From the NCBI RefSeq assembly GCF_009707485.1, contig NZ_CP046121.1:1240001-1304000 (forward strand): a stretch of DNA of 64,000 nucleotides. Direction: 5' to 3'. The DNA is from Nostocoides sp. HKS02. Lineage in GTDB: Bacteria > Actinomycetota > Actinomycetes > Actinomycetales > Dermatophilaceae. The notes below the pieces were generated by a model, which worked only from the letters and a program-made list of their open reading frames with translations, ran no database searches and was not told the DNA's origin. Made by a program: the position numbers and the translations under genes. Positions 1 through 64,000 of this stretch are shown in pieces. Each line of letters begins with the position of its first letter. Within the stretch, counting starts at the first letter, position 1.

Positions 1-728
1 GCCTCGGTGAGCAGCATCAGGGCCAGCAGCCCGGTCACCTCACCATCGTCCGGCAGGAGGCTACGGATCAGGCGAGTCAGCCGGATCGCCTCGGAGGTCA
101 GGTCCTGGCGCACGGGGTCGCTGTCCGGGCCGGTCGCAAGATAGCCCTCGTTGAAGACGAGGAAGAGGACCGCCAGCACGCCGGAGACGCGCGCCGGCAG
201 GTCCTCGGCGGACGGCACCCGGTACGGGATGTGCGCCGCCTTGATCTTGGCCTTCGCGCGTGTGATGCGCTGCCCCATGGTCGCCTCCTGCACGAGGAAC
301 GCGTGGGCGATCTCGGGCACGGTCAGACCGCCCACCATGCGCAGCGTCAGGGCCACGCGGGACTCCAGGGCGAGTGCGGGGTGGCAGCAGGTGAAGATCA
401 GTCGGAGCCGTTCGTCGTCGATGGCGCCGAGAGGCTCGGGCGGCTCGTTGTCGTACCCCATCTGGGCCTGCTTCTGCTTGTCGTCACGCTTGTTCTCACG
501 CCGGATCCGGTCGATGGCCTTGCGCTTCGCGGTGGTGGTCAGCCACGCGCCAGGGTTCGGCGGTATGCCGTCGACCGGCCAGCGCTCGACAGCGGTGGCG
601 AACGCCTCGGCCGACGCCTCCTCGGCGATGTCGAGGTCGCCGAACCGTCTGGCCAGGGCGGCGACCACGCACGCCCACTCCTCGTGGTGCGCACGGGTGA
701 TCGCGTCCTGGATGTCGCCGATGCTCAC
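1..728 (-). CDS. ECF42-like RNA polymerase sigma factor (3' end beyond window)
   Basis: A group IV (ECF) sigma factor with the extended C-terminal region (DUF6596) typical of ECF42 proteins. The GTG start at 728 gives VSIGDIQDAITRAHHEEW, followed by region 2 with an AEEASAEAFATAVERWP stretch, then a linker and sigma-4 with LTVPEIAHAF and a QRITRAKAKI recognition segment. After that comes LPARVSGVLAVLFLVFNEGY, the start of the extra domain. The frame is open to base 1, so about 242 codons are visible and the C-terminus is missing. No clear ribosome binding site is seen. ECF42 genes usually sit beside a DGPF/YCII-domain protein. None lies upstream here, where the neighbour is a DUF1353 gene ending 45 bases before this start, so the partner may lie beyond the window edge. 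Family assignment is good; the exact group is inferred. Confidence 0.85.
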   Translation of the reverse strand, partial: MSIGDIQDAITRAHHEEWACVVAALARRFGDLDIAEEASAEAFATAVERWPVDGIPPNPGAWLTTTAKRKAIDRIRRENKRDDKQKQAQMGYDNEPPEPLGAIDDERLRLIFTCCHPALALESRVALTLRMVGGLTVPEIAHAFLVQEATMGQRITRAKAKIKAAHIPYRVPSAEDLPARVSGVLAVLFLVFNEGYLATGPDSDPVRQDLTSEAIRLTRLIRSLLPDDGEVTGLLALMLLTE

Positions 729-772
729 ACCAGTTCTACGAACAACGGTGCTCCGATCCGACGCCGCCGGGC

Positions 773-1768
773 TCACGGCGTGGGGAAGAAGCCGGGGAAG
801 GGGGGTACGGCGGCGGGGAGCATCGCGCCTTCGGGGACGGTGACGTTGCTGGGTGTGGCCCCGTCGATGAGCCGAAGCACCTTGGTCCAGGCCAGGTCCA
901 GCCAGTGCATGACGAAGTCCAGCAACCACAGGACGAACCGCGTCACCATGGTCACCACGACCAGGGGCAGCACCGGGGGCGCGGTGAGAACACCCACCAC
1001 GCCGGCGCCGACCAGGCTCAGCAGCGCCGGCAGCGAGAACCTCACCGGCCCGCCAGCGGCTGGGCGTTCGAAGCTGCGGTAGACGAGCGCCACGAGCGAG
1101 ATCGTCGCCACGGCGATCATGATGCCGGTGTAGGGCTGGTTCGGACGAAGAGCGGTCGCCAGCTGCGCCAACCCCCACGCGATTCCTTGGGGGACCCAGT
1201 CGAGCCAGGACAGCCACGGCCAGATGGTGACCTTGTTGAGCAGGTCCGACACCGACACGAAGACATTGCTGGACTGGTGCAGCATGCTCACGATGATCCC
1301 GGCGAGGACGGCGACGCCGAGAGGCCGGAAACCGAACAGCCGCACCGCGCACCACATGATGTACCGCGTCACGACGCCCTGGTCGGCGTGCGCCTTGAGG
1401 GTGTGCCGGAACTGGTGGTCGGCATGCCGTCGCAGGTATGCCGTGCGCGCCCGTCCGCCGTTCCCGGCGGCCGCCTTGGACGCATCGCAGCGGACGTCGT
1501 GGAGGATCGCGGGCATGGTGTGCCGCCCGTAGCTGGCGATCAACCCCCAGAGGAACGGGGGGATGGATGCGAGGTCGGTGGAGGTGTCGAGGGCGACGCG
1601 TGAGTCCAGGTCGGGGACGCCCGGGGTGCGGTTCGCCCAGCCGAAGGCGTCCCCACAGGTGAAGGACGTCTTGGTCGAGGCGGACCCCAGCTGGGTGAGC
1701 CGCACGTCCTGCTTGGGGCTGGTGTCGTAGTCGTCCGGTTCCGGCCCGACGTGGTCGAAGAACGGCAT
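773..1768 (-). CDS. DUF1353 domain membrane protein
   Basis: A 331-residue protein of unknown function. The N-terminal third carries the DUF1353 signature: DLASIPPFLWGLIASYGRH followed by PAILHDVRCD, with His and Asp residues conserved in this phage-associated family. From about residue 135 the protein has several hydrophobic segments (for example PLGVAVLAGIIVSML, GIMIAVATISLVALVY and LLSLVGAGVVGVLTA), so it is probably an integral membrane protein. The ATG at 1768 was chosen because GAGGAGG stands five bases upstream; a longer frame reaching 1852 has no such signal. DUF1353 is best known from phage and small cytosolic proteins, so its fusion to a multi-span membrane part is unusual. It lies in the same direction as the sigma factor that follows. 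Confidence 0.7.
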   Translation of the reverse strand: MPFFDHVGPEPDDYDTSPKQDVRLTQLGSASTKTSFTCGDAFGWANRTPGVPDLDSRVALDTSTDLASIPPFLWGLIASYGRHTMPAILHDVRCDASKAAAGNGGRARTAYLRRHADHQFRHTLKAHADQGVVTRYIMWCAVRLFGFRPLGVAVLAGIIVSMLHQSSNVFVSVSDLLNKVTIWPWLSWLDWVPQGIAWGLAQLATALRPNQPYTGIMIAVATISLVALVYRSFERPAAGGPVRFSLPALLSLVGAGVVGVLTAPPVLPLVVVTMVTRFVLWLLDFVMHWLDLAWTKVLRLIDGATPSNVTVPEGAMLPAAVPPFPGFFPTP

Positions 1769-1911
1769 GGTGTCCTCCTCGTGGCACCGCACGGTCCACA
1801 CGCTCGAGCAATCATGGTCCCGCGATGGTCCCCGGACGAGCAACGGTGACAAAAGCCGTCAGACCGACTCCTGCGGAAGGTGCGCCGGCGGCTATGCCGG
1901 CACGACTCGGA

Positions 1912-2276: not shown

Positions 2277-3407
2277 TCAGCCGGACATCACCAGCACCTG
2301 GCGCGCGACGGCGCCAGCCGCGAGAGCGTCCATGGCCTCGTTCACCGCGGCCAGCTCGAAAGTGCCCCCTGCGAGCAGGTCGACGGGCAGCCTGCCCTGC
2401 TGGAACAGCCGCACGTAGCGCGGAATGTCGCGCCTGGGCACCGACGACCCCATGTACGAACCGACGAGCCGGCGTTCCTCCGTGACCAGGCTCAGCGCCG
2501 GCAACGCGTAGCGCTGGTCCGGGTGTGGCAGGCCGATGCCCACCGTCGTCCCACCACGCCTGGTCGCGGCATACGCAAATGCCAACGCATCCGGGTGGCC
2601 TGCCGCCTCGAACGCGTAGTCGGCACCACCACGGGTGAGCTCGTGGACGGCTCCGGCTGCCTCCTCCCCCACCAGGACGGCGTCGGAGGCACCCAGCGCT
2701 CGGGCGAGCTCGAACTTGGCTGGGTCGAGGTCCACGGCGACGATGGTCTCGCACCCCGCGAGCCGGGCACCCATCACCGCCGCGAGGCCCACCCCGCCAA
2801 GACCGACCACCAGCGCCGACGACCCCGGTTCGACCTTCGCGGTGTTGAGCACCGCACCCACGCCGGTCAACAGGGCGCACCCGAAGAGGGCGGCCTGCTC
2901 GAACGGGAGCTCTGCGGGAACCGGCACCACGGACGCCGCCGCCGCCACTGTCCGCTCGGCGAACGCCGACACCCCGAGGTGCTGGTTGACCGGCGAGCCG
3001 TCGGGGCGCGCGAACGGCCGCCGCCCGGACAACAGGGTGCCTGCCGTGTTCGCCGCGGCGCCGCGCTCGCACAGGGCGGGCCGACCGGACAGGCACGGCA
3101 CGCAGTCGCCACAGGACGGCACGAACGCGAACACGACATGGTCACCCGGGCGCACGTGGTGGACCCCCGGGCCGACCTCTTCCACGATCCCGGCCGCCTC
3201 GTGCCCCAGCACCATGGGCACGGGCCTGGGCCGGACTCCGTCCACGACGGACAGGTCGGAGTGACACACCCCCGCCGCCCCAACCCGGACCAAGACCTCG
3301 CCGGGGCCCGGCCGTTCGAGGGTCAGCTCCTCCAGCTCCAAGGGTCGCGAGGAGGCGAAGGGGGCCTTGGCGCTCGTCCGGCCGAGCACAGCCGCAGTCA
3401 CGCGCAT
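2277..3407 (-). CDS. zinc-dependent alcohol dehydrogenase
   Basis: A 376-residue medium-chain dehydrogenase that would oxidise an alcohol, or reduce an aldehyde, with a nicotinamide cofactor. The catalytic-zinc region shows GVCHSDLSVVDG and the GHEAAGIVEEVGPGV motif (His-Glu). The structural-zinc cysteines lie in CGDCVPCLSGRPALC. A Rossmann motif VVGLGGVGLAA lies near residue 190, followed by VAVDLDP. The length and the early Cys-His motif resemble class III and related alcohol dehydrogenases, including NDMA-dependent or mycobacterial AdhD types; the substrate cannot be read from sequence. The ATG at 3407 lies two bases after the stop of the upstream thioesterase, so the two are likely co-transcribed and may act on the same small-molecule pathway. 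Confidence 0.9.
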   Translation of the reverse strand: MRVTAAVLGRTSAKAPFASSRPLELEELTLERPGPGEVLVRVGAAGVCHSDLSVVDGVRPRPVPMVLGHEAAGIVEEVGPGVHHVRPGDHVVFAFVPSCGDCVPCLSGRPALCERGAAANTAGTLLSGRRPFARPDGSPVNQHLGVSAFAERTVAAAASVVPVPAELPFEQAALFGCALLTGVGAVLNTAKVEPGSSALVVGLGGVGLAAVMGARLAGCETIVAVDLDPAKFELARALGASDAVLVGEEAAGAVHELTRGGADYAFEAAGHPDALAFAYAATRRGGTTVGIGLPHPDQRYALPALSLVTEERRLVGSYMGSSVPRRDIPRYVRLFQQGRLPVDLLAGGTFELAAVNEAMDALAAGAVARQVLVMSG

Positions 3408-3409
3408 GG

Positions 3410-4026: not shown

Positions 4027-4027
4027 C

Positions 4028-4852: not shown

Positions 4853-5610
4853 CCACGCACTTCGTTGGTGATACTGCCGTGCTGCTGGGCCGGTCCCTGC
4901 GGCACATCACGCGCAGCCTGGACACCATCATCACCACCACGATCATGCCGATCGCCTTCATGCTGCTGTTCGTCTACGTCTTCGGCGGCGCGATCAAGTC
5001 AGGGTCGGACTCGTACGTGAGCTACCTGCTGCCCGGCATACTCCTGATCACGATTGCGTCAGGCATCGCCTACACCGCCTTCCGGCTCTTCCTGGACATG
5101 ACCACCGGCATCGTCGAGCGCTTCCAGTCCCTGCCCATCGCTCGATCGTCCGTGCTCTGGGCGCATGTGTTGACCTCGCTGGTCGCCAACCTGGTTTCGC
5201 TCGTCGTCGTCGTCCTCGTCGCCCTCATCATGGGTTTCCGGTCTGGGGCGGGCATGCTGGCCTGGCTCGCAGTCACCGGCATCCTGGTCCTGTTCACCCT
5301 GGCGCTGACCTGGCTGGCCGTCATCCCCGGTTTGTCAGCGAAGTCTGCCGACGGCGCGAGCGCGTTCTCCTACCCGCTGATCTTCCTGCCCTTCGTGAGC
5401 TCGGCCTTCGTACCCACCGCCACCATGCCGGGTCCGGTACGCGCGTTCGCCGAACACCAACCGGTGACGTCCATCGTCAACGCCATCCGCGACCTGTTCA
5501 CGCAGCAGCCGGTGGGCAGTGACATCTGGATGGCCCTTGCCTGGTGCGTCGCCATCCTGGTCGTCGCGTACACCTGTGCGATGGCCATCTACCGGCGCAA
5601 GAGCACCTGA
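4849..5610 (+). CDS. ABC-2 type permease, DrrB-like
   Basis: A 253-residue integral membrane protein of the ABC-2 export family, partner of the ATPase upstream. About six hydrophobic segments are visible, among them IMPIAFMLLFVYVFGGAI, YLLPGILLITIASGIAYTA, LVSLVVVVLVALIMGF, ILVLFTLALTWLAVIP and the final WMALAWCVAILVVAYTCAMAIY. The ABC-2 motif region PLIFLPFVSSAFVPTATMPGPVRAFAEHQP is characteristic of DrrB-type exporters. It starts at the ATG overlapping the ATPase stop codon (ATGA), so the two are translationally coupled. The MerR regulator gene follows within about 30 bases, forming a transporter-regulator unit. Confidence 0.93.
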   Translation: MTTHFVGDTAVLLGRSLRHITRSLDTIITTTIMPIAFMLLFVYVFGGAIKSGSDSYVSYLLPGILLITIASGIAYTAFRLFLDMTTGIVERFQSLPIARSSVLWAHVLTSLVANLVSLVVVVLVALIMGFRSGAGMLAWLAVTGILVLFTLALTWLAVIPGLSAKSADGASAFSYPLIFLPFVSSAFVPTATMPGPVRAFAEHQPVTSIVNAIRDLFTQQPVGSDIWMALAWCVAILVVAYTCAMAIYRRKST

Positions 5611-6442: not shown

Positions 6443-6473
6443 CGAGGTCGCCCACTGTGAGCGGCTAGTCGGA

Positions 6474-7352: not shown

Positions 7353-7933
7353 GCCGTCGAGGGTACGGCCGCGCGCTCGGCCATCGGCTTCAGCCCACAC
7401 GCGGCGGCAAAGCCCTCCGACTCGATGCCCAACGCGACGTTGGAGCGGGTGGTCAGGTTGGCGAAGCCGATCACGCTCGTCAGCTCAAGGAGCCCAGCCT
7501 CACCGAGCTGCGAGAGCAAGCTCGCGACCAGCTCCTCGGTGACCGTGGGTGGGGTCTGGCTCATCGCCTCGGCATACTCGAGCACCTCCCGCTCCAGCGG
7601 CGTGAACAGGTGCGACGCGCGCCATCGCGGGATGTCGCGCGCCTTGTCCAGGTCGAGCCCTTGGTTCCTGGCCATGAAGTAGGTGAAGTCCAGGCACCAC
7701 GAGCAGCCGATGAGCGACGCCACCGCCAGGTGGGCGAACGACTTGAGTCCCTCGTCGCACCGGTCCCACTTCTGCAGCCTCTGGCCAAAGCGCATGCTCG
7801 CCTTCAGGGCGGGGAGGTGGTGCCACATCACCCCGAGCGACTCGGGCACCTGCCCGAACATCCTGACGCTGAGCGTTTTCACCATCGCGCCGTACAGACC
7901 GGTGATCTCCTTCGGCGGGATCCTTGTGGCCAT
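7349..7933 (-). CDS. carboxymuconolactone decarboxylase / AhpD-like protein
   Basis: A 194-residue protein of the AhpD/CMD fold and the typical genomic partner of ECF41 sigma factors. The CxxC active-site motif appears as LIGCSWCLDFTYFMARNQG, followed by a histidine-free helix; AhpD-type proteins with this motif act in thiol-based peroxide or redox handling, though the function of the ECF41-linked branch is not established. ATG 7933 is supported by AGGAGGAG immediately upstream; a longer frame from 7969 lacks this. It overlaps the sigma gene by four bases (ATGA), implying coupled translation and control by the promoter at 7973-7999. Confidence 0.9.
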   Translation of the reverse strand: MATRIPPKEITGLYGAMVKTLSVRMFGQVPESLGVMWHHLPALKASMRFGQRLQKWDRCDEGLKSFAHLAVASLIGCSWCLDFTYFMARNQGLDLDKARDIPRWRASHLFTPLEREVLEYAEAMSQTPPTVTEELVASLLSQLGEAGLLELTSVIGFANLTTRSNVALGIESEGFAAACGLKPMAERAAVPSTA

Positions 7934-8045: not shown

Positions 8046-9392
8046 TCAGGCTCCCGCCGTGGCTTGCGAGCCTGCGATCTCGGACCGCAGCGTCTTCAGC
8101 GCCGTGAGGTAGATCTCCGAGAACGAGGGGAACGGCTGGATCGTGTCGATGAGGATCTCGAGTGGCACCCGGGCTCGGATCGCAAGAGTGGCCTGTTGGA
8201 GCCACTCACCCGCCTCCGGCCCCAAGGCGTAGGCGCCCGTGAGCCGGTCGCCGTCGGAGACCAGCGTCAGGAAGCCGTTCGACTCGGCATACGCCCGGGT
8301 GTAGGTCGCAGTCCGGGCCACGTCGGAGACTGCTGCCGTCGCGCTAAATGGCCCGTCGCTCGCGCCGACGGCGGCGGCCGGCGGATCGGTGTAGACGACC
8401 CGCGGCATGGCGTCATAGTTGGCTTCGCGTGGCTCGCCGAGGAGGTTGGCTGCGACTACGCGGGCCTGGTACTTCCCGGCATGGGTGAACAGGAACTGGC
8501 CGGTGACGTCGCCGATGGCCCACAGCCGCTCGCCTGCCCGCATCGAGGCGTCGACCGGTATGCCGCGCGGATCAGACACGATACCAACGGTTTCCAGGCC
8601 GATGCCCTCGGTACGGGGCCGACGGCCCGTCGCGACGAGCAGGCGGTCCCCGCGCAGCTCTCGCCCGCCCTCCAAGGTCAGAACGAACTCCGAACCGTCA
8701 CGTCGTGCCGCGGTGGCCGTGGTGTCGAGGACCACGTCGATGCCGTCGCGCCGCAGCACCTCGGCGACCGCGTCCCCCAAGGGTGCTGGCTCGCGGCTCA
8801 AGATGCGATCGCTGACCAGGACGACCTCGCCGCCCAACCGGCGCACGGCCTGGGCCATCTCGGAACCGACGGCGCCTCCACCCAGGACCAGGAGGCGCTC
8901 CGGCACTGAGGTCATGGCGGTCACCTCGCGGTTGGTCCATATGCCGTCGAGCTCGCGCAGACCGGGGATGGGCGGTATCGAGGGCTCGGAGCCGGTGGCG
9001 ATGACGACGTCCTGGGCTGCGTGAGGTCGACCGTCGACCTCGACGACCCCGGTGCCCGCAAGCCTTCCGGTGCCGCGCAGCAGGTCGATGCCGTGATCGG
9101 CCAACCAGGCCTCCTGCCCGGCATCACTGTGGTCGGAGACCATGAAGTCCCGCCACGCCAGGGCGGCGGACACGTCGACCTCGGCCGTGCCAGCAGCATC
9201 GCGGGCGGCATGCACAGCCTCACCGGGACGAAGCAAGGTCTTGGAGGGGATGCACGCCCAATATGAGCACTCGCCGCCCACGAGCTCCCGCTCGACCACA
9301 GCCACTTTCAGACCGCCCTCGGCCAACGCCCCGGCACAGTGCTCGCCCGGAGATCCCCCGCCCACGACGATCACGTCGTACTGCTCGTTCAT
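8046..9392 (-). CDS. FAD-dependent pyridine nucleotide-disulfide oxidoreductase
   Basis: A 448-residue flavoprotein of the dihydrolipoamide dehydrogenase/mercuric reductase superfamily. The FAD-binding motif [17 protein letters not shown] is at the N-terminus, followed by the redox pair region [14 protein letters not shown], where the second cysteine replaces the usual CxxxxC spacing partner. A second Rossmann motif [16 protein letters not shown] binds NAD(P)H, and a GDVTG segment near residue 290 precedes the dimerisation domain. The reaction is electron transfer between NAD(P)H and a disulfide or quinone-like acceptor; the substrate is unknown. The ATG at 9392 has GAGGAG about nine bases upstream. 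It is divergent from the MarR regulator, with 328 bases between them. Confidence 0.9.
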
Positions 9393-15154: not shown

Positions 15155-15164
15155 AGTGGGGGCC

Positions 15165-29502: not shown

Positions 29503-29592
29503 GCCCGCACGCTACCTGTCGCGCCGCGACACTCCGACACCCCGCGAGGCGCGCATTGCCCGTGGGAGGTGCCCCTCGCGGCATACGCTCTG

Positions 29593-31476: not shown

Positions 31477-31602
31477 CGCCTGCGGCGTGACGGCTCTCAC
31501 GCGCGACCACGGGTGACCCGGTTGTTACCGAGAAGTAGCATCGGTCCGTACGCACCGGCATACCCGGTGTCACCCCAAGCACCACGTCAAGGGAGGCCCT
31601 CC

Positions 31603-52925: not shown

Positions 52926-53809
52926 CCCACCCCGTCCTGCTCGTCGCCGGCCGCCTCTGCGGCCGCCCGGACCACGGCCTCCAGCGCCACGTGCAGGGTC
53001 GGTGCGGCGCCCACCACCATGGCGGTGTCCGGCGGCCCGCCGGCCAGACCGGTGAAGCGTCCTCCCGCCTCGGTCAGGACCAGCCAGGCCGCGGCGAGGT
53101 CCCACGGGTTGAGCCCCCGTTCGAAGTAGCAGTCGAGCGTGCCCGCGGCCACGGCGCAGATGTCGAGGGCCGCGCTGCCGATCCGGCGCACGTCCCGGAC
53201 CTGGGTGATCACCCCGGCGAGCACCCGGGTCTGCCAGGCCCGACGCCGGGCATCGTAACCGAACCCGGTTCCGGCGAGCGCCTGGCTCAGCTGCGGCGGG
53301 TCTGCGAGGGCGAGCTGTGTGTCGGGGCCGTCCCCCACGCGCAGCCACGCGCCACCGCCGAGCCGCGCGTGGAAGGCCTGCGCCGTCACCGGGTTGACGA
53401 CGGCTCCGGCCACCGGGCGCCAGGCGCCCGGCTGGGACGGGTCGCCCACGACGGCGGCGACGGACACGGCATACGACGGGATTCCATAGAGGTAGTTGAC
53501 GGTGCCGTCGATGGGGTCGACCACCCAGGTGATCTCGGACCGCGTGGACGTGCCGCCCTCCTCCTCGCCGAGGAACCCGTCATGGGGTCGCGCCGCCTGG
53601 AGCCGGGTGCGCAGGAGGTCCTGGGCGCGCTGGTCCATCACCGTGACGACGTCGGTGGCCGTGGACTTGGTGTGGGAGACGCCCAGGTCTGCTGGACGCT
53701 CGTCGACGATGAGCCGACCCGCCTCGAGGGCCAGCTCGAGCGCGAGCTGCTCGAGCCCCACGAGATCGTCGGGCGCCGGAAGCGGCAGGTCGGCAGAGAG
53801 GGCGTCCAC
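52910..53809 (-). CDS. suhB: inositol monophosphatase-family protein (SuhB)
   Basis: A 299-residue Mg-dependent phosphatase. The metal-binding motifs are GFLGEEEGG, WVVDPIDGTVNYLYGIPSYAVSVA and LNPWDLAAAWLVLTEAGG, the three signatures of the family. It would dephosphorylate inositol 1-phosphate or related sugar phosphates. GTG 53809 lies one base after the ferrochelatase stop, so translation is coupled. In mycobacteria suhB follows the same gene block (recalled as Rv2701c). Confidence 0.93.
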   Translation of the reverse strand: MDALSADLPLPAPDDLVGLEQLALELALEAGRLIVDERPADLGVSHTKSTATDVVTVMDQRAQDLLRTRLQAARPHDGFLGEEEGGTSTRSEITWVVDPIDGTVNYLYGIPSYAVSVAAVVGDPSQPGAWRPVAGAVVNPVTAQAFHARLGGGAWLRVGDGPDTQLALADPPQLSQALAGTGFGYDARRRAWQTRVLAGVITQVRDVRRIGSAALDICAVAAGTLDCYFERGLNPWDLAAAWLVLTEAGGRFTGLAGGPPDTAMVVGAAPTLHVALEAVVRAAAEAAGDEQDGVGQAAL

Positions 53810-53810: not shown

Positions 53811-54932
53811 TCAGTCCCGTCCGCAGAGGGCGGGCCGCGCCTGGCGCAGGTTCGGACAGCACCCCGGGGCGCAGACGGACGGCATCGCCGCCCTGCCGGG
53901 CCAGGCCGGCCGCGCTGGGTCCTCACCCCGGGCCTCGGCGGCGCGCTCCTCGATGAGGTCGACCAGCCCCGAGACGAACTCGGGGTCGGTGCCCACGGTG
54001 GGCACCCGGACCAGCCGCAGCCCGAGTCGCTGCGCCGTCGCCGCTGCCTCGGTGTCGAGGTCGTAGACGACCTCCATGTGGTCGGAGACGAAGCCGATGG
54101 GTGCGACGACCACGGTGCTCGCACCCTCGGCGGCGAGCTCGGCGAGGCGGTCGTTGACGTCGGGCTCGAGCCATGGCTGGCTCGGCGGCCCGGATCGCGA
54201 GCAGAACGCCAGCCCACCCTCGAGGTCGGTGTCGAGGGTCGCGTTGACCTCGTCGGTGATGGCAGCCCCGAGGGTCAGGTGCTGGCGCCCGTAGGCGTTG
54301 CCGTCCTCGTCGCCAGGCCCGGAGGTGTCGTCCATGGCGGTCGGGATCGAGTGGGTGACGAACAGCAGGCGTATGCCGGTCGGGTCGACCCCATCGCGCA
54401 GCAGCCCACGGACCGCTTCGGTGACCAGGCGGGAGTTGGCTCGCGAGAAGCCGGGGTGGTTGGCGTACGGGCGCACCTTGTCGACGGCGATCTCGTGCCC
54501 CGCCTCGGCCGCCTCCTGCTGGGCGCGCGCGAGGTCCTCGCGGTACTGGCGGCACGAGGAGTACGACGAGTAGGCGCTGGTGACCACCGTGACCAGCCGG
54601 GACATACCCCGCTCGGCGGCGTCGGTCAGCGCTTCGACGGTGAAGGGGGTGAAGTTGCGGTTTCCCCAGACCAGCGGGGTGGCGATGCCGCGCCGGTCGA
54701 GCTCGGCGCGCAGGGCAGCCAGGAGCGCCCGGTTCTGGTCGTTGATCGGGCTGCGGCCGCCGAACCCGTAGTAGTGCTGCCCGACCTCCTCGAGGCGCTC
54801 GTCCGGGATGCCCTTGCCCGCCGTCACGGTGCGCAGGAACGGCAGGACGTCCTCGGGCTTCTCGGGTCCCCCGAAGGACAACAGCAGGATGCCGTCGTAG
54901 GGCTCGAGTGGGTGGTTGTCGGCGTCGCTCAC
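53811..54932 (-). CDS. hemH: ferrochelatase (coproporphyrin ferrochelatase, CpfC)
   Basis: A 373-residue enzyme inserting ferrous iron into coproporphyrin III in the actinobacterial heme route. Visible motifs are DGILLLSFGGPEKPEDVLPFLR, GHYYG-type HYYGFGGRSPINDQNR, TSAYSSYSSCRQYREDL, LLFVTHSIPTAMDDTSG with the catalytic His, and PIGFVSDHMEVVYDLDTEA with the Glu. A C-terminal cysteine set CAPGCCPNLR fits the [2Fe-2S] cluster known in this lineage. GTG 54932 was chosen; the open frame upstream belongs to the TRIC gene region. It sits between TRIC and suhB, away from the hemE-hemY-hemQ cluster. Confidence 0.95.
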   Translation of the reverse strand: MSDADNHPLEPYDGILLLSFGGPEKPEDVLPFLRTVTAGKGIPDERLEEVGQHYYGFGGRSPINDQNRALLAALRAELDRRGIATPLVWGNRNFTPFTVEALTDAAERGMSRLVTVVTSAYSSYSSCRQYREDLARAQQEAAEAGHEIAVDKVRPYANHPGFSRANSRLVTEAVRGLLRDGVDPTGIRLLFVTHSIPTAMDDTSGPGDEDGNAYGRQHLTLGAAITDEVNATLDTDLEGGLAFCSRSGPPSQPWLEPDVNDRLAELAAEGASTVVVAPIGFVSDHMEVVYDLDTEAAATAQRLGLRLVRVPTVGTDPEFVSGLVDLIEERAAEARGEDPARPAWPGRAAMPSVCAPGCCPNLRQARPALCGRD

Positions 54933-55674: not shown

Positions 55675-56595
55675 ATGCGCGATCTGCGACTGATCGGTGT
55701 TCATGAGGACGGCCAGCACTTGCTGCTGTCCGATTCCGAGGGCGAGCGCTTCCGGATCCTTCTCGACGAGCCACTGCGAGCGGCGGCCCGGCGCGACCGG
55801 CCCCGCCTCGGCCAGCTCCAGATCGAGATCGACGGTGGAATGCGCCCGCGCGAGGTCCAGGCCCTCATCCGGGCCGGCCTGTCGGCCGACGAGGTGGCCG
55901 AACGCGCCGGCTGGACGGTGGAGAAGGTCCGACGGTACGAAGGGCCCATCCTCGCCGAACGCGAGCACGTCGCGGGCCTGGCCCGTGGTGTGCGCCTGCG
56001 GGCGCGCAGCGGTGCGGGTGCGAGTGCGCCGACGCTGTCCGCCCGCGTCAGCCAGCGGCTCTCCGGTCGGGGCGTGGACCCCGCGCTCGCCGAGTGGGAC
56101 TCGGCTCGAGGCGAAGCCGGCGACTGGACCGTCATCGTCACCTTCCCCGCGGGCGGTCGCGAGCGCCAGGCACGCTGGAGCTTCGACGTGCCGAGCCGAA
56201 CTGTCGCCGCAGCCGACGACGAGGCGCGCTGGCTCAGCGAGGAGGACTCGGCGGCGGCCGGTTCCCCACTGCCGGCCCCGCACCTGGTCTCCTCGCCCGT
56301 GCGCTCGACCACCGTCTTCGACGTCGAGGCTGAGGGCGGGGTCGCGGGAACGACCCGCCGCACTCCCCCGGCCCTGCGCACCGAGGAGCCGCTCGACCTC
56401 ATGATGGCGATGCGCGAGCGCGCCTCGCACCGGGGACGCCCACGCCGTCGCAAGGGCTCTGCGTCGCAGACGCCGCTCGACGAGGCGCCCCGCGAGGACG
56501 CCCTGCCCCTGGAGGACCTCGCCTACGACCCGGAGTCGATGCCGCCACCGCCCGCTGCCCGCGGCATACATCCCCCTGGATGGCGAGTCGGGTGA
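55675..56595 (+). CDS. sepH: septation protein SepH (C-terminal frameshift)
   Basis: A cell-division regulator that binds FtsZ in actinobacteria. The N-terminal DUF3071 domain is intact: MRDLRLIGVHEDGQHLLLSD, FRILLDEPLRAAARRDRPRLGQLQIEI and MRPREVQALIRAGLSADEVAERAGWTVEKVRRYEGPILAERE, a helix-turn-helix. The frame ends at 56595 with WRVG, but the next frame continues to TGA at 56848 and ends RKGVPSWDDVMFGAKPQS, typical of SepH. Removing one C near 56549-56551 joins the two frames (PPPPLPAAYIPLDGE) and gives 390 residues. Without the correction the conserved FtsZ-linked C-terminal motif would be lost. Confidence 0.92.
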   Translation: MRDLRLIGVHEDGQHLLLSDSEGERFRILLDEPLRAAARRDRPRLGQLQIEIDGGMRPREVQALIRAGLSADEVAERAGWTVEKVRRYEGPILAEREHVAGLARGVRLRARSGAGASAPTLSARVSQRLSGRGVDPALAEWDSARGEAGDWTVIVTFPAGGRERQARWSFDVPSRTVAAADDEARWLSEEDSAAAGSPLPAPHLVSSPVRSTTVFDVEAEGGVAGTTRRTPPALRTEEPLDLMMAMRERASHRGRPRRRKGSASQTPLDEAPREDALPLEDLAYDPESMPPPPAARGIHPPGWRVG

Positions 56596-57568: not shown

Positions 57569-58717
57569 TCACGCGCTGTCCCGTGCGGCCACCTGGAACA
57601 GGGGCACGGCCGACTCGTCGGCGGTGAGCGACCCGTGCAACCCGACCAGGGCCAGCAGCTGGGGTCGGGCGCGCCGCGAGTCGACGATGGCGAAGTTGTC
57701 ACGCATGGCGACGACCAGGTCGCCGATGCGCGGCAGGTTCACGGGTGTCACCGGACCGAACCAGCCCTCGGCGACCGCTTCGTCGCGCGTCCGCAGCCAG
57801 GCCCGCTCACCGACCCGGGCCCGCCACGTCTGGCCGACGTCCTCGGCAGCGCCCGGCTCGCAGTAGAGCTGGGGCGCGCGGGCCTCGCCCCCGACGTGGC
57901 GGATGCCAGCAGCCAGCTCGGGGTCGTGCGCGAGGTCGATCCGCAGGGCGTGCGGCGCATCGATCATCCCGTGGTCGGCGGTGATGTAGACGGCGGTGTC
58001 AGAGGGCACCGACCGCACGAGGCGGGCGAGCTCGGCATCGATCGCTTCGAGCTGGTCGCCCCACTCCCACGACTGGCACCCGTGGACGTGCCCGACCTTG
58101 TCGAGGTCGCCCCAGTACAGGTAGACCAGGGCCCGCCGGTCGGCACGAACAGCGGCCAGCGAGGCGTCCACGCGCGCCGCGAGGGTGTCAGCCGCCCGAA
58201 ACCGTCCGCCGCGTAGCGCTGCCTGGGTGAGCCCCGACCCGTCGAAGAACGCCGGCCCGACCCGCGTCACGGCCACGCCGTCGGCATCGGCCGCCTCGAA
58301 CACGGTCGGCCGAGGCTGCCACGTGAGCGGGTCCGGCCCGTCCTCCCACGAGAGCTCGTTGACGAGCCGGTCCTCGCCCGGCACGAGCACCTCGTAGCCC
58401 AACAGCCCGTGGGCCCCCGGCGGGAGCCCGGTGCCGAAGGTGCCCATCGACGTGGCCGTGGTCGACGGGAACCCGGCCGCCAGCCGGTATGCCGCGGGCA
58501 GCAGCGAACGCAGGAAGGGTGCGTGGCCGCCGCGCCGGCGGATCAGCTCATAGCCCAGGCCGTCGACGAGGACCACGACTGCCCGTCGGGCCGGCGCCAC
58601 GGTCAGCCCGTCATCGGCGGCATATCGGTCCACCCCGAGGCTGCCCGCGATGGCCGGCAGGACGGCTGCCAGCCCTGCTGCGTCGTAGCGCGGTGGCATC
58701 AAGCCGTCGTACGGCAT
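57569..58717 (-). CDS. alkaline phosphatase-superfamily phosphodiesterase (NPP-like)
   Basis: A 382-residue hydrolase of the alkaline phosphatase/nucleotide pyrophosphatase fold. The first metal Asp lies in VVLVDGLGYELIRRRGG, the catalytic Thr in AGFPSTTATSMGTFGTGLPPGAHG, and further metal ligands in YLYWGDLDKVGHVHG and VYITADHGMID. It lacks a signal peptide, so it acts in the cytosol. ATG 58717 has an alternative 18 bases later. It is followed by tdk on the same strand. The substrate, a nucleotide or sugar diester, is unknown. Confidence 0.9.
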   Translation of the reverse strand: MPYDGLMPPRYDAAGLAAVLPAIAGSLGVDRYAADDGLTVAPARRAVVVLVDGLGYELIRRRGGHAPFLRSLLPAAYRLAAGFPSTTATSMGTFGTGLPPGAHGLLGYEVLVPGEDRLVNELSWEDGPDPLTWQPRPTVFEAADADGVAVTRVGPAFFDGSGLTQAALRGGRFRAADTLAARVDASLAAVRADRRALVYLYWGDLDKVGHVHGCQSWEWGDQLEAIDAELARLVRSVPSDTAVYITADHGMIDAPHALRIDLAHDPELAAGIRHVGGEARAPQLYCEPGAAEDVGQTWRARVGERAWLRTRDEAVAEGWFGPVTPVNLPRIGDLVVAMRDNFAIVDSRRARPQLLALVGLHGSLTADESAVPLFQVAARDSA

Positions 58718-58732
58718 GGGTGGGCGTGGCTC

Positions 58733-59389: not shown

Positions 59390-62053
59390 CTAGGTGAGCG
59401 AGCGCCTGCCCGGGTCCTTGCGACGGGGTGTCGGAGCCACGACGGCCTCGGCGCCGAGCACATCCACGCCACCGGGGTGGGCGTTCACCGGGTTGAGCAC
59501 GAGGCTGGCCACTTCCGGCAGGTTGTCGGCGAGCACGGAGACCCGGGCGATGAGGTCGGCCAGGGCTGCCCGGTGCACCGGAGCGGCGCCCCGGTGACCG
59601 TGCAGCATCGGCGCGGCCCGGACCGAGGAGATCAGGTCGGAGACGTCCACATCGGTCAACGGCGGGATGCGGTGGCCGATGTCGCCGAGCAGGTCCGTCG
59701 GTGGACCGGCGATGCTGAACGAGACGACCGGCCCGAACAGGGGATCCTCGTCGGAGCGCACGACGCAGGAGACGCCCGGATTCGCCATCCGCTGCACGAC
59801 GAAGGTGTTGGCCGAGAGCGGGGCGAGCCGGTCGTTGAGCGCGGAGTACGCCTCGCGCAGTCGCGCCTCGGAGCCGAGGTCGACGCGGATGCCGCTCAGG
59901 CCGGGCTGGTGACGCATCAGGGGGGCCACCGACTTGAGCACGACCGGGTAGCCGACGAGCTCGGCCGCGGCCACCGCCTCCTCGGCGGTGCGGACCGGCA
60001 CGCTGCCCCAGACATGGATGCCGTACGCGTCGAGCAGCTCGGCGACCTCCGGCTGCTCGAGCCGCCGGCCCTCCGGCGACTGCGCCAGCACCCGCTCGAC
60101 GAGGCGCTCGGCGGCGTCGCGGTCGATGCCGAGCGGGACCACCGGTATGCCGCGGTCGCGAGCCCGCCACTCGGCATACCGCGTCGCGGCGGCGAGCGCG
60201 CGCACCGCGTCCTCGGGCATGGAGTAGGCCGGCACGACGAGCTTCTGGCCGTCCTCGCCCGTCTCGGACAAGCGCTCGACGACCCCCCGCATGCCGAGGA
60301 AGGTTGCGAGACAGGGCTTTTGGCCCGCCACGGCGGCATCTCTCACCGCAGTCGCGACGTCCTCGTCGAGGGTGACGAGCGGCGGGATGAAACAGGTGAG
60401 GACACTGTCGACCTCGGGGTCGGCGAAGGCAGCCGACAGCGCCTCGGTGAACTGCTCGCCGCGCGCGTCGCTGTGCAGCGAGACGGGCCCGTGGGCGACC
60501 TGGAGCCCCCAGCTGACGCAGGCCTCTGCCGTGAGGGCGCCGAGTGCGTCGGAGTTGCCGACGATGGCGACGCGGTTGCCGGTCGGCAGGTTCTGGTAGG
60601 CCAGCAGCTGCGCCACGTCGAACATCTGGTGGACGTTCTCGACGCGGATCACGCCCGCCTGGCGCAGCATCGCGTCGAACGCCTCGGGCCGCACGCGCGT
60701 CGGGCGGGCCCGGTGCCCTGGCGGCACACCGTAGGACGACACCCCCGACTTCACCACGATCACGGGCTTGGTCGAGGCGAGGCGGCGGGCGATCCGGGAG
60801 AACTTGCGGGGGTTGCCCATCGACTCCAGGTACAGCCCCACGACATCGGTGTCGCCGTCGTCGATCCAGTACTGCATGAAGTCGTTGCCGGAGACGTCGA
60901 CGCGGTTGCCGGCCGAGGCGAAGACGGAGATCCCGAGGCCCCGACGGGCGGCCGAGGCGAGCACGGCGATGCCGAGGGCACCACTCTGGGCGAACAACCC
61001 CAACCGCCCCGGTGGCGGCAGCTCCGGGGCCAGCGAGGCGTTGAGCCGGACCGAGGGATGGTTGTTGATCACGCCGAACGAGTTGGGCCCGAGGACCCGC
61101 ATGCCCGCCTCGCGCGCCGCGGTGAGGAGCCCGTGCTGCCGCTCCTCTCCCTCGGGGCCGGACTCGGCGAACCCGGCGCTCACCACCAGCAGGGTCTTGA
61201 CCCCGGCCTCGGCACAGTCCGCGACGACCTCGAGGACCTCCTCGGCGGGCACCGCGACCACGGCGAGGTCGACCTCGTCGGGGATCTCGCTCACCCGCGC
61301 GTAGGAGTGCAGGCCCAGGACCTCCATCGCCTCGCGGTTCACCGCGTGCACCGCGCCGTGGAACCCGGAGGCCTGGATGTTGGCCAGGATGTGGTGGCCG
61401 ATGGAGCCCTGGTGCCGACTCGCGCCCACCACGGCGATGGAGTCCGGGAACAGCACGGAGTGCATGCTCACGGACTCGGCCCGGTGCTCGCGGGAGAGCC
61501 GCACGGCTTCGGAGCGTTCCGTCGGCTGGATCCGGAACCGCAGCGAGACCACGCCGTCGGCGAAGTGCCGGTCGACCTCGTAACCCGCGTCGGAGAACAC
61601 CGAGATCATCTTCCGGTTCTGGGGCAGGACCTCGGCCGTGAACTCGGTGACGCCGGCCTCCCAGGCGATGACTGCCAGGTGCTCCAGCAGGACCGAGCCA
61701 ATCCCCTTGCCCTGGTAGGCGTCTGAGATGTTGAAGGCCACCTCGGCGCTGGTCGGAGTGATCCGGTCGTAGCGGCCGATGCCGATGATGTCGCCCCGGA
61801 CCGTGGCGACCAGGGCGACCCGGTCGTGGTAGTCGACGTGGGTGAACCGGGTGACGTCCCGCTCGCTCAGCTGCCGGAGCGGAGCGAAGAAGCGCATGTA
61901 GATGGACTCTTCGGACTGGCCGGCGTGGAAGCGGTGCACCGCCTCGGCGTCGGCCGGCGTGATGGGTCGCAGGTGCGCGACCGAGCCGTCGCGGAGGACG
62001 ACGTCCGCCTCCCAGTGGGCCGGGTAGCCAGGAGGACGGACGGCCTCGGTCAT
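59390..62053 (-). CDS. Pat-like GNAT/acyl-CoA ligase fusion (protein acetyltransferase)
   Basis: An 887-residue multidomain protein. An N-terminal GNAT domain (about 1-180; FNISDAYQGKGIGSVLLEHLAV is the acetyl-CoA loop) is joined to a CoA-binding domain (AVVGASRHQGSIGHHIL), a succinyl-CoA ligase flavodoxin-like region (GLFAQSGALGIAVLASAARRGLGISVFASAGNRVDVSGNDF) and an ATP-grasp C-terminus (VLKSVAPLMRHQPGLSGIRVDL). Such Pat/PatZ proteins acetylate lysines, for instance of acetyl-CoA synthetase. The GNAT domain is N-terminal here, the reverse of the E. coli order. ATG 62053 starts 74 bases from the divergent nitroreductase gene. Confidence 0.93.
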   Translation of the reverse strand: MTEAVRPPGYPAHWEADVVLRDGSVAHLRPITPADAEAVHRFHAGQSEESIYMRFFAPLRQLSERDVTRFTHVDYHDRVALVATVRGDIIGIGRYDRITPTSAEVAFNISDAYQGKGIGSVLLEHLAVIAWEAGVTEFTAEVLPQNRKMISVFSDAGYEVDRHFADGVVSLRFRIQPTERSEAVRLSREHRAESVSMHSVLFPDSIAVVGASRHQGSIGHHILANIQASGFHGAVHAVNREAMEVLGLHSYARVSEIPDEVDLAVVAVPAEEVLEVVADCAEAGVKTLLVVSAGFAESGPEGEERQHGLLTAAREAGMRVLGPNSFGVINNHPSVRLNASLAPELPPPGRLGLFAQSGALGIAVLASAARRGLGISVFASAGNRVDVSGNDFMQYWIDDGDTDVVGLYLESMGNPRKFSRIARRLASTKPVIVVKSGVSSYGVPPGHRARPTRVRPEAFDAMLRQAGVIRVENVHQMFDVAQLLAYQNLPTGNRVAIVGNSDALGALTAEACVSWGLQVAHGPVSLHSDARGEQFTEALSAAFADPEVDSVLTCFIPPLVTLDEDVATAVRDAAVAGQKPCLATFLGMRGVVERLSETGEDGQKLVVPAYSMPEDAVRALAAATRYAEWRARDRGIPVVPLGIDRDAAERLVERVLAQSPEGRRLEQPEVAELLDAYGIHVWGSVPVRTAEEAVAAAELVGYPVVLKSVAPLMRHQPGLSGIRVDLGSEARLREAYSALNDRLAPLSANTFVVQRMANPGVSCVVRSDEDPLFGPVVSFSIAGPPTDLLGDIGHRIPPLTDVDVSDLISSVRAAPMLHGHRGAAPVHRAALADLIARVSVLADNLPEVASLVLNPVNAHPGGVDVLGAEAVVAPTPRRKDPGRRSLT

Positions 62054-62127
62054 GGCCCAAGAATGTCATGCCCGCGGTCGGCGACGCGCCGGTGTCCGGT
62101 GTCGGGAAGATGGCCGAGGATGGGCCC

Positions 62128-62796
62128 ATGGAGTTTCGTGAGGTGGTGCGGCGGCGGCGCATGGTGCGCCGGTTCGACCCCGACCGACCGGTGCCTCGCG
62201 GCACCCTCGAGCAGGTCCTGTATGCCGCCCAGCGGGCCCCCAGCGCGGGTTTCAGCCAGGGTTGGGACTTCGTCGTGCTCGCGGACGAGCCGTCGCGCAG
62301 CCGGTTCTGGGCGGCCAGCGCAGATCCCGGACGACCCGAGGACGCCTGGCTGCGTGGCGTCTCGGCAGCACCCGTGCTCGTGCTGTGCCTGTCGGACCCC
62401 GAGACGTACCTCGACCGCTATGCCGAGCCGGACAAGGGCTGGACCGACCGCGACCCGCGGCGCTGGCCGGTGCCGTACTGGGACGTGGATACCGGGATGG
62501 CGGCCCTGCTCATGCTCCTGAGCGCTGTGGACGAAGGCCTCGGCGCCCTGTTCTTCGGCGTGCCCCCGACCCGGCACGAGGCGGTCCGGCAGGCCCACGG
62601 CATCCCGGCCAACCGGCGCCTGGTCGGGGTCGTGGCGCTCGGCTTCGAACGGGAACGCACTGTCTCCCCCAGCCTGCGGCGGGGGCGGCGGAACCACGCC
62701 GACGTCGTGCACTGGGGCGCCTACGGCGAGTCGGGCGAGACCGCCCCAGAGCCGTGGGAGAGGATGGGGCGTTCCCACGGCCCCGACCAGGAGTGA
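62128..62796 (+). CDS. nitroreductase-family protein
   Basis: A 222-residue FMN-dependent oxidoreductase. The family start MEFREVVRRRRMVRRFDPDRPVPRGTLEQVLYAAQRAPSAG binds FMN, and YWDVDTGMAALLMLLSAVDEGLGALFFGVP forms the dimer interface. It may reduce nitro compounds, quinones or flavins with NAD(P)H; in some lineages relatives make F420-linked reactions, which cannot be decided here. ATG 62128 is favoured over a longer open frame because it begins the conserved domain. The topoisomerase gene follows after nine bases. Confidence 0.92.
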   Translation: MEFREVVRRRRMVRRFDPDRPVPRGTLEQVLYAAQRAPSAGFSQGWDFVVLADEPSRSRFWAASADPGRPEDAWLRGVSAAPVLVLCLSDPETYLDRYAEPDKGWTDRDPRRWPVPYWDVDTGMAALLMLLSAVDEGLGALFFGVPPTRHEAVRQAHGIPANRRLVGVVALGFERERTVSPSLRRGRRNHADVVHWGAYGESGETAPEPWERMGRSHGPDQE

Positions 62797-62805
62797 CCCC
62801 CACGC

Positions 62806-64000
62806 ATGGCCCGCAAGACGCTCACCCCACCGGCTGACGACAGCGACTTCGTCGAGCGCATCGTCGACATCGACGTCGAGGACGAGATGCAGGGGGCGTA
62901 CCTCGAGTACGCCGTGTCCGTCATCCACTCCCGGGCGCTGCCCGACGCCCGGGACGGCCTCAAGCCCGTGCAGCGGCGAATTCTCTACTCGATGAGCGAG
63001 ATGGGTCTGCGACCCGACCGCGGCCACGTGAAGTCCTCGCGCGTCGTGGGCGACGTGATGGGCAAGTACCACCCCCACGGCGACAGCGCGATCTACGACG
63101 CCCTGGTCCGGATGGCCCAGCCATTCACGATGCGGCTTCCCCTCGTCGACGGCCACGGCAACTTCGGCTCGCTCGACGACGGGCCGGCCGCGTCGCGGTA
63201 CACCGAGGCCCGGCCCGGCGCCGCCGCCCTGCTCATGACCGCGGGCCTCGACGAGGACACCGTCGACTTCGTCCCCAACTACGACGACCAGCTCACCCAG
63301 CCCGGAGTCATGCCTGCGGCGTTCCCGAACCTGCTCGTCAACGGGGTCAGTGGAATCGCCGTCGGCTTCGCGACGAACATGCCGCCCCACAACCTCGTCG
63401 AGGTCATCGGCGCCGCGCGCCACCTCATGGCCAACCCGACCTGCTCCCTCGACGACCTCATGAAGTTCGTCCCCGGCCCGGACCTGCCCCAGGGCGGGCG
63501 GGTCGTGGGGCTCGAGGGCATCCGCGACGCCTACCTCACCGGCAAGGGCAGCTTCCGCACCCGCGCGACCTCGCGGATCGAGAAGGTCACGGCGCGCCGA
63601 CAGGGCATCGTCGTCACCGAGCTGCCCTACCTCGTCGGCCCCGAGAAGGTCATCGAGAAGATCAAGGACGCGGTCCAGTCCAAGAAGCTCCAGGGCATCT
63701 CGGACGTCAAAGACCTCACCGACCGCAAGCACGGCCTGCGGCTGGTCATCGAGGTCAAGAACGGCTTCAACCCTGACGCGGTCCTCGAGCAGCTCTACAA
63801 GCTGACCCCGATGGAGGACGCGTTCCACATCAACAACGTCGCGCTCGTCGACGGCCAGCCGCGCACCCTGGGGCTCAAGGACCTCCTCAAGGTCTACATC
63901 GACTTCCGGATCGAGGTCGTGCGCCGCCGCACCGAGTACCGCCTGGGCAAGCGCAAGGACCGCCTCCACCTCGTCGAGGGGCTGCTCATCGCCATCGTCG
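62806..64000 (+). CDS. parC: DNA topoisomerase IV / gyrase subunit A (3' end beyond window)
   Basis: The N-terminal 398 residues of a type IIA topoisomerase A subunit, which cuts and rejoins DNA. Seen are [30 protein letters not shown], the quinolone-determining region [20 protein letters not shown] with a wild-type Ser, and the catalytic tyrosine in [13 protein letters not shown]. The rest of the breakage-reunion domain follows, ending in a coiled-coil part [17 protein letters not shown] at the window edge. Position near sepH and away from gyrB, as in Streptomyces, suggests ParC rather than GyrA; this is inference. ATG 62806. Confidence 0.9.

Follow-up and report, generated by a model that had tools for sequence, protein, structure and literature searches.

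In bacteria that recognise their own DNA during transformation, the known type of reader for the DNA uptake sequence (DUS) is ComP, a type IVa minor pilin, and close inverted pairs of DUS commonly serve as terminators. The USS of Pasteurellaceae has a non-palindromic core (AAGTGCGGT, with flanking A/T tracts), lies on both strands, is mostly genic in cheap reading frames, and is spaced at about 1.2 kb. To our knowledge, self-recognising transformation has so far been found in two lineages. Other genome words include KOPS and SRS, which are strongly strand-biased, and cyanobacterial HIP1, a hugely over-represented octamer of unsettled function. As described in the parts of Frye et al. 2013 (PMC3630211) drawn on here, DUS 10-mers number about 1,900 in the genomes of N. 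meningitidis and N. gonorrhoeae, and eight DUS dialects exist, some one base apart, with one genome carrying two dialects and five family genomes having no obvious DUS.

The sequence considered here is a 64-kb stretch (the window) from a soil actinobacterium. By exact matching, the window contains TATGCCG 52 times, with 27 copies on the + and 25 on the - strand, whereas dinucleotide shuffles of the window (n = 100) gave a mean of 2.3 (sd 1.5, largest 6). The first-pass annotation had reported about 52 copies of TATGCCG or its complement CGGCATA against roughly six expected, in about equal numbers on the two strands and with every TATGCC followed by G. Its observation was right and understated: the expectation is lower than it supposed, all 52 TATGCC in the window are TATGCCG, and the balance of strands extends to the whole genome, which holds 1366 + and 1341 - copies (2,707 in 3.48 Mb, or one per 1.3 kb) compared to 118 and 90 for a control word, TATGCCG read backwards. 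Furthermore, the base before TATGCCG is G in 44 of the 52 window copies, indicating that the true unit is the octamer GTATGCCG; beyond it the flank holds a weak G at +9 (weakly GTATGCCGNG).

Reading frames and intergenic status in the window were taken from our own gene calls, with copies located by exact match. Twenty-six copies fall in a Tyr-Ala frame. Those that are full octamers lie on the + strand at 15572..15579, 16586..16593, 18854..18861, 22872..22879, 29724..29731, 32127..32134 and 62220..62227, and on the - strand at 2567..2574, 7570..7577, 8285..8292, 18582..18589, 23825..23832, 26002..26009, 27784..27791, 37756..37763, 45447..45454, 45999..46006, 49894..49901, 51878..51885, 53467..53474 and 60172..60179; the heptamers are preceded by C at 27058..27064, 49497..49503 and 62419..62425 (+) and 29265..29271 (-), and by A at 58618..58624 (-). 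Ten octamers occupy an Ala-Tyr frame, at 1436..1443 (antisense), 25136..25143, 38084..38091, 45064..45071, 45331..45338, 50415..50422, 51996..52003 and 58487..58494 on the + strand and at 15271..15278 and 29579..29586 on the - strand. Together these account for 36 of the 52 copies, in line with the earlier description of the word as mostly Tyr-Ala or Ala-Tyr within genes. Eight copies lie antisense in a Gly-Ile frame (+ strand, 8558..8565, 27916..27923, 35175..35182, 54371..54378, 60145..60152 and, as a heptamer preceded by A, 8940..8946; - strand, 5034..5041 and 48666..48673), and one is in another sense frame (22026..22033, -). The seven intergenic copies are the octamers at 563..570 and 40678..40685 (+) and 31556..31563, 41251..41258 and 56562..56569 (-), and two heptamers preceded by C, at 1893..1899 (+) and 15149..15155 (-). 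The copies at 60145..60152 and 60172..60179 form an inverted pair.

The excess is independent of codon use in a 464-kb sample of the same genome, consisting of 20 stretches round the genome plus the window. Genic GTATGCCG numbered 282 in this sample, compared to 21.8 (sd 4.0, max 31, 40 shuffles) under a codon-preserving shuffle and 48.4 (sd 5.5, max 60) when codon-boundary dinucleotides were also kept; the excess thus persists under the codon-matched null that the first-pass annotation had proposed genome-wide. Tyrosine before GCC and after xxG was encoded by TAT in 135 of 157 cases if G followed, but in only 4 of 33 otherwise, which demonstrates dependence on the whole octamer. The motif holds 26 of the 49 ATA codons and 135 of the 308 TAT codons of the sample. 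Density is 0.74/kb in genes and 0.61/kb between them, and 151 copies are in sense orientation, 132 antisense and 52 intergenic, making action at the RNA level unlikely. As with DUS and USS, the motif is found in and between genes and is poor in foreign DNA: nine two-kb tiles below 66% GC contained no copies, and such tiles were poorer, although not empty, in two relatives (5 copies in 8 tiles in G002 and 8 in 8 in G026). The one phage searched, TJE1, carries 2 copies in 49 kb compared to 0.94 expected.

The strand-resolved arrangement of the copies was then considered. Among the 20 stretches round the genome none was lopsided, the extremes being 8:4 and 1:3; with strands near equal in every stretch sampled, a KOPS/FtsK-type signal is ruled out, as the earlier annotation had already concluded. 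Copies of GTATGCCG on the same strand repel one another within about 1-1.5 kb, whereas copies on opposite strands are indifferent to one another, and consequently neighbouring copies alternate strands: neighbours were on opposite strands in 216 of 314 cases in the host sample and in 273 of 386 in a second GTATGCCG species. Same-strand pairs within 1 kb occurred at 0.33-fold, compared to 1.10 for 23 control octamers of the host genome. The + strand of the host is covered evenly, at a spacing of ~2.2 kb, in most gene contexts, and the first 100 + strand TATGCCG sites had a spacing CV of 0.60 (null 0.98, 0.1 percentile 0.76). The even spread noted previously therefore holds in a stronger sense, on each strand separately, and such strand-by-strand evenness was seen in two GTATGCCG genomes. 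Close inverted pairs (≤60 bp) numbered 9 in 464 kb and were not clearly enriched, with + then - at 1.57-fold and - then + at 0.78-fold. In the one-base dialects of relatives, repulsion was weak for GGATGCCG (z 3.6, with 204 of 344 neighbours on opposite strands; spacing on the + strand fell inside the null range), and alternation was not significant for GTACGCCG (127/225, z 1.8).

Occurrence of the motif is patchy and family-limited. At least 600 copies of GTATGCCG were present in 23 of the 36 family genomes searched and the word was scarce in 13; no genome reached at least 600 copies among 22 others of the order or among 292 from other families in a sample of the phylum. Some relatives with few or no GTATGCCG carry the dialects GGATGCCG (1966+1850 genome-wide in G026) or GTACGCCG (1081+1135 in G033 and 687+672 in G034), and others use two spellings, GTATGMCG. 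G013 has GTATGACG (754+803) beside GTATGCCG (1130+1158), and G009 and G010, of the same genus, both show an excess of GTACGCCG in addition to GTATGCCG. The excess was likewise independent of codon use in samples of relatives, with 318 GTATGCCG in G002 compared to 25.8 and 69.0 under the two codon nulls, 270 GGATGCCG in G026 compared to 59.4 and 82.2, and 207 GTACGCCG in G033 compared to 59.2 and 74.2.

Excess beyond codon use, about one copy per kb, equal strands and one-base dialects are all traits of DUS and USS, and we consider the chance about even that GTATGCCG is a self-recognition word of this kind in Actinobacteria, read with polarity. Of the four candidates offered by the first-pass annotation (methylation, repair bias, uptake and nucleoid binding), uptake is best supported, by the dialects and the distribution, and a single-base repair bias finds no support. 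From these patterns we infer uptake, a reader, polarity of entry and drive, as follows. In Intrasporangiaceae (Pedococcus and relatives), GTATGCCG would be a genome-wide self-tag working like DUS or USS: a component of the transformation apparatus (Tad pilus, ComEA and ComEC), at the surface or membrane, would bind the octamer on one strand, and from there one strand would enter with fixed polarity. As tagged DNA recombined into the chromosome, molecular drive together with selection would make the tag spread. Each copy would serve one strand only, over roughly 1-1.5 kb, such that a nearby copy on the same strand would add nothing while one on the opposite strand would, giving the observed alternation; another version of the reader in relatives would favour another spelling.

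The host genome encodes ComEA, ComEC, a TadA-type ATPase, TadE proteins of the Rv3655c/Rv3654c type and a Tad locus; its comEC is in two frames, perhaps owing to an assembly indel. ComEC was found in 57 of the 58 genomes searched (the host included) and T2SSE-type ATPase matches in all 58, with 57 above the cut-off, in genomes with and without the motif alike, so the apparatus is not diagnostic, and no reader protein tracking the motif was found among these 58 genomes searched for ComEC and T2SSE ATPases. A search for N_methyl pilins (PF07963) revealed no ComP-like type IVa minor pilin in the host; such pilins occurred in 12 of 58 genomes, only two of them (G015 and G035) among the 23 rich in GTATGCCG. 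More tentatively, and with somewhat less confidence than the uptake reading itself, we suggest that Actinobacteria may possess an uptake system of their own, which would have evolved separately from the Neisseriaceae and Pasteurellaceae systems, depend on a Tad rather than a type IVa pilus, be read on one strand, and keep two independent, evenly spaced sets of tags, one for each strand, with one-base dialects between genera.

The main rival, which we regard as unlikely, is a Chi-like site: AdnAB or another helicase-nuclease would read GTATGCCG one way while resecting a break and then switch to recombination. On this reading each side of a break would use one orientation, requiring an evenly spaced set on each strand. 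The octamer is asymmetric, polarity is inherent to Chi, and the strand-resolved even spacing fits. PDDEXK_1 nuclease matches occurred in 57 of 58 genomes, and the host has two such frames of 1163 and 1312 aa whose size and adjacency suggest AdnAB; however, these nucleases are near-universal while the motif is patchy, and the host lacks RecC, as do 20 of the 23 family genomes rich in GTATGCCG. AdnAB is not known to be under Chi control, and the mycobacterial enzyme is not known to respond to Chi; if GTATGCCG acted as its Chi site, this would give the first indication of such control. Chi in E. coli K-12 is skewed (79:32 in 500 kb), unlike GTATGCCG, and its copies on one strand do not repel each other (2.1-fold within 1 kb), although it should be noted that it behaves no differently from 43 E. 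coli control octamers (average 1.8-fold) and that a single Chi genome is a thin yardstick. Chi words do vary between species, according to the same portion of Frye et al. 2013 (PMC3630211).

Slightly less probable still is some other strand-reading process, such as a nick, priming or single-strand binding site, for example a mismatch-repair strand-discrimination nick or the binding of ssDNA by a packing protein. The even + strand coverage and the improbability of RNA-level action agree with it, but a housekeeping role would predict neither one-base dialects nor a word that is scarce in 13 of the 36 family genomes, and a priming site should show a replication-strand bias that was not seen in the 20 stretches. 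Strand-specific spacing is not what a non-polar signal for nucleoid binding would lead one to expect. Mutational or repair bias or restriction-modification, e.g., C>T changes in GTACGCCG that depend on context, or methylation of the site, is very improbable. GTACGCCG stands at 0.57 of the codon null, and relatives often differed from the motif by a single change, C replacing T at position 4 (18 of 300 site-by-relative comparisons); however, 66 of these 300 comparisons were identical and 177 differed at two to six bases, the count of the putative precursor GTACGCCG agrees with the Markov model (42 observed, 36 expected), and other neighbours were depleted as much or more, in small counts (GTATGCGG 0.17-0.33, GTATCCCG 0.12-0.30, GTATGCCC 0.22-0.28). 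Such a bias would not space sites evenly per strand, and a single C>T hotspot or one-base mutation or repair bias is not supported.

If GTATGCCG is an uptake word, self-recognising transformation would extend to a third lineage, in a Gram-positive phylum, the dialects would be a natural experiment on spelling change, and a comparison of close relatives could reveal the reader. Measuring spacing strand by strand is also an easy, widely applicable test by which polar genome words could be told from non-polar ones. Compared to the words already described, GTATGCCG resembles HIP1 (GCGATCGC) in being a hugely over-represented octamer, but HIP1 is a palindrome and GTATGCCG is not. KOPS and SRS, read by FtsK and SpoIIIE, are likewise asymmetric octamers distributed genome-wide, whereas the strands of GTATGCCG are near equal in each stretch sampled. 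E. coli Chi (GCTGGTGG) is also an over-represented asymmetric octamer whose orientation matters; unlike Chi, which is skewed and not self-repelling in the 500 kb tested, GTATGCCG is unskewed and same-strand repelling, in genomes mostly without RecC. With the USS it shares non-palindromy, presence on both strands, mostly genic placement in cheap frames and a similar spacing, but GTATGCCG is eight bases long and is followed by a weak G at +9. Dissimilar from the DUS of Neisseriaceae, GTATGCCG is a different word in a host of another phylum with 71% GC, its uptake role is putative, most of its genomes lack a ComP-like type IVa minor pilin, and its strand-resolved repulsion is a feature not mentioned for DUS in the parts of Frye et al. 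2013 (PMC3630211) used here. Set against that same partial account, DUS and GTATGCCG are nevertheless alike as short non-palindromic words with thousands of copies, one-base dialects, and both two-dialect and dialect-less genomes.

TATGCCG was counted 52 times in the window (27 forward, 25 reverse) against 2.3 in dinucleotide shuffles, in agreement with the roughly 52 copies of the first-pass annotation, which had also seen correctly that every TATGCC in the window is followed by G. A G precedes 44 of the 52 copies, and in a 464-kb sample of the HKS02 genome (20 stretches plus the window) no other octamer comes near the resulting one, GTATGCCG, in over-representation (335 copies versus 9.7 expected under a trinucleotide model); the listed octamers that do not overlap it reach only 2.7- to 6.7-fold excess. 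Over the whole genome, a single contig of 3,482,451 bases, TATGCCG occurs 1366 + 1341 times on the two strands and the word read in reverse 118 + 90 times. Statistically, the excess of the word is firm. A preference for G two bases further downstream (GTATGCCGNG) shows in Tyr-Ala, Ala-Tyr, Gly-Ile and intergenic copies of the HKS02 sample and also in G002, a second GTATGCCG species, and this preference is absent in the sample of G026, a relative that uses the one-base spelling GGATGCCG. HKS02 itself lies near Pedococcus in the Intrasporangiaceae, its best named protein match being to Pedococcus bigeumensis (94%, a protein read as aconitase by eye).

The excess also outlasts the codon-matched comparison proposed in the first-pass annotation, since 282 genic copies of GTATGCCG were found in the HKS02 sample against 21.8 after synonymous-codon shuffling and 48.4 when codon-boundary dinucleotides were kept. 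With 20 shuffles each, the same tests gave 318 copies of GTATGCCG in G002 against 25.8 and 69.0 (boundary dinucleotides kept), 270 of GGATGCCG in G026 against 59.4 and 82.2, and 207 of GTACGCCG, another one-base spelling, in G033 against 59.2 and 74.2. In the HKS02 sample, where a codon ending in G is followed by Tyr-GCC, tyrosine is written TAT 135 times out of 157 if a G comes next and 4 times out of 33 before any other base, and 26 of the 49 ATA codons (the rarest for Ile) in called genes lie inside the motif. An explanation by codon or dipeptide use is rejected on the shuffles in four samples and on this TAT and ATA usage. Furthermore, the motif occupies all six frames, in counts that are approximate because the gene caller is crude (codon log-likelihood; coding fraction 0.82) and misses some genes, and its density is 0.61/kb in intergenic versus 0.74/kb in genic DNA. 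A signal acting in the transcript is disfavoured, the copies being 151 sense, 132 antisense and 52 intergenic. GTATGCCG is a DNA-level signal.

Strand counts are nearly equal in every stretch sampled from the HKS02 genome, which bears out the earlier statement that the word is unlike an FtsK-orienting sequence and leads us to reject an FtsK/KOPS role. Neighbouring copies lie on opposite strands in 216 of 314 cases in the HKS02 sample (strand permutation 163.9, sd 8.5; z 6.1), in 273 of 386 in 400 kb of G002 (z 8.2) and in 204 of 344 for GGATGCCG in G026 (z 3.6); for GTACGCCG in G033 the 127 of 225 are not significant (z 1.8). No such effect was seen among 23 control octamers of comparable frequency from the HKS02 sample, the opposite-strand fraction averaging 0.47 and reaching at most 0.54, versus 0.69 for GTATGCCG. 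In successive 0.5-kb bins to 2 kb, same-strand pairs stand at 0.23, 0.41, 0.64 and 0.92 of expectation in HKS02, at 0.46, 0.46, 0.82 and 1.04 in G002, at merely 0.77, 0.83, 0.85 and 0.93 in G026, and at 1.13, 0.82, 1.26 and 1.07 in G033, while opposite-strand pairs in HKS02 and G002 stay at 0.96 to 1.23. The same-strand repulsion is seen inside genes and between genes, and also where one partner is intergenic; HKS02 pairs in oppositely directed genes are the exception, their number being too small (5 opposite, 4 same). Single-strand gaps are correspondingly regular, with a CV of 0.60 for the first 100 forward-strand TATGCCG sites of HKS02 (null 0.98, 0.1 percentile 0.76), and 0.70 and 0.63 in G002; in G026 one of the two values stays inside the null (0.93) and the other is 0.71. 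From this strand-resolved spacing, each GTATGCCG copy appears to serve one strand over a reach of about 1-1.5 kb.

With GTATGCCG-rich set at 600 or more copies, 23 of 36 Intrasporangiaceae genomes qualified (lowest 625) among the 58 genomes counted, HKS02 included; counts went no higher than 293 in the other 13 and 167 in the 22 genomes from other families of the order. When 296 genomes were sampled across the phylum, 3 of the 4 from the family reached the cut-off and none of the 292 others did, the highest of these having 386 copies in 7.5 Mb. One-base variants of GTATGCCG are found in several genomes that lack it. GGATGCCG occurs 1966 + 1850 times in G026 and 674 + 662 times in G011, the remaining 34 family genomes having 149-486 forward copies; GTACGCCG occurs 1081 + 1135 times in G033, 687 + 672 in G034 and, less clearly, 356 + 396 in G029; and GTATGACG accompanies GTATGCCG in G013, G014 and G021. 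Of the 11 genomes searched from the genus of the window, G009 and G010 rank lowest in GTATGCCG, and GTACGCCG is raised in both (501 + 510 and 418 + 447; the remaining nine have 92-250 per strand). No clear sign of any of the four words was seen in G012, G016, G018, G019, G020, G023, G024 and G030. De novo word counting in named loci, none longer than 23 kb, recovered GTATGCCG in Knoellia, Terracoccus, Ornithinimicrobium cerasi, an uncultured Serinicoccus and Nostocoides jenkinsii, GGATGCCG in Humibacillus sp. DSM 29435, GTATGMCG in Flexivirga and CGTATGCG in one MAG; three Janibacter loci of that size held no GTATGCCG.

Other repeated words were also noted. GGATGCCG stands at 774 + 774 in the 3.8 Mb of G055, from another family of the order, over the usual few hundred per strand, and a locus of Kribbella catacumbae, outside the family, holds 23 GTACGCCG and 22 GTACGGCG versus 4.1 each. 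The palindrome GCGTACGC, perhaps another highly iterated word, occurs 18 times versus 0.5 expected in a Propionibacterium MAG locus and 12 times versus 2.0 in one of Pedococcus sp. 5OH_020. Words such as CAGTTCGA and ACGGTCAC, at 26-29 copies in 20 kb of G033 (C1:1-20000), probably reflect a repetitive gene.

Within HKS02, 4 motif copies fall in the first 8.6 kb of the stretch at 2.958 Mb, and the 11.4 kb that follow are free of them, with GC at 0.60-0.64 from the 10th kb of the stretch onward. This motif-free part, 11 kb at about 2966600-2978000 and mostly 60-64% GC, follows genes that by eye resemble a conjugative element. The longest gap in G002 is 7 kb (GC 0.59), a length within chance, and tiles below 66% GC hold 0 copies in 9 tiles of the HKS02 sample, 5 in 8 of G002 and 8 in 8 of G026. 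Phage TJE1 of Tetrasphaera jenkinsii, which we take to be Nostocoides jenkinsii, carries 2 copies in its 49 kb versus 0.94 expected, and the host locus 20 in 22.7 kb versus 0.8.

A single-base mutation hotspot creating the word is disfavoured, since its presumed precursor GTACGCCG is found 42 times in the HKS02 sample versus 36 by a Markov model. GTACGCCG is at 0.57 of the codon null, and so is short by that measure though not by the Markov model; GTATGCGG, GTATCCCG and GTATGCCC, with small counts, are depleted as much or more, and CTATGCCG and GGATGCCG show no depletion against the codon null. In 300 comparisons of HKS02 sites with aligned relatives, counting each site once per relative, 66 were identical, 57 differed by one base (22 by T>G at position 2, 18 by T>C at position 4) and 177 by two to six. 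An uptake word is the likely reading, with about an even chance of being right, and a Chi-like site for AdnAB comes next, as a rather improbable one. A RecBCD Chi is disfavoured, because RecC, present in 18 of 58 genomes, is absent from HKS02 and found in 3 of the 23 family genomes rich in GTATGCCG, a smaller share than the 7 of 13 among the other family genomes, and because Chi is spaced differently in a 500-kb stretch of E. coli K-12, the sole Chi yardstick used, where it is skewed 79:32 and 2.1-fold enriched on the same strand within 1 kb with no self-repulsion, the same clustering as 43 control octamers there (1.8-fold on average).

ComEC was found in 57 of 58 genomes, PDDEXK_1 nucleases likewise in 57, and comEA in all 20 loci examined, from motif-bearing and motif-free genomes alike; in G002 the domain models TIGR00426 (ComEA) and TIGR00360 (ComEC) score above cut-offs and the full-length models below. 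The HKS02 comEC is split over two frames at C1:1517076-1517881 (PF03772 1-145 and 141-267 in adjacent frames), through either a genuine break or an indel in the assembly. Long overlapping frames at 30207-31476 and 32847-34959 of the window, by eye a ribonuclease D-like gene and one for fatty-acid oxidation, resemble frameshift-broken single genes, which suggests indel errors in the single-contig assembly. A Tad locus of HKS02 adjoins a DECH helicase and encodes a TadA-type ATPase (TIGR03819) and two TadE-type proteins (NF041390, TIGR03816), which lie at L164:5722-6060 and 6117-6458. A type IVa pilin signature is present in 12 of 58 genomes and absent from HKS02, so a type IVa receptor was not found there as reader. 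In the loci compared, no gene beside comEA/comEC or Tad is confined to motif genomes; the best correlate beside comEA, a PlsY-type acyltransferase by eye (cluster 12), did not turn up in the loci of the motif genomes G013, G014, G021 and G031. As none of ComEC, comEA, Tad, pilin, RecC or PDDEXK_1 separates motif genomes from the rest, no reader is assigned.

For the DUS of Neisseriaceae, the part of Frye et al. 2013 (PMC3630211) drawn on here describes eight dialects, two of them in one genome, and none obvious in five family genomes. As no ComP-type receptor was found in HKS02, and uptake itself is inferred, GTATGCCG should not be filed in the Neisseria DUS family. Nevertheless, the word would work like a member of it, and its dialects, two-word genomes and family genomes without a clear word resemble the DUS pattern in the part of that study cited.
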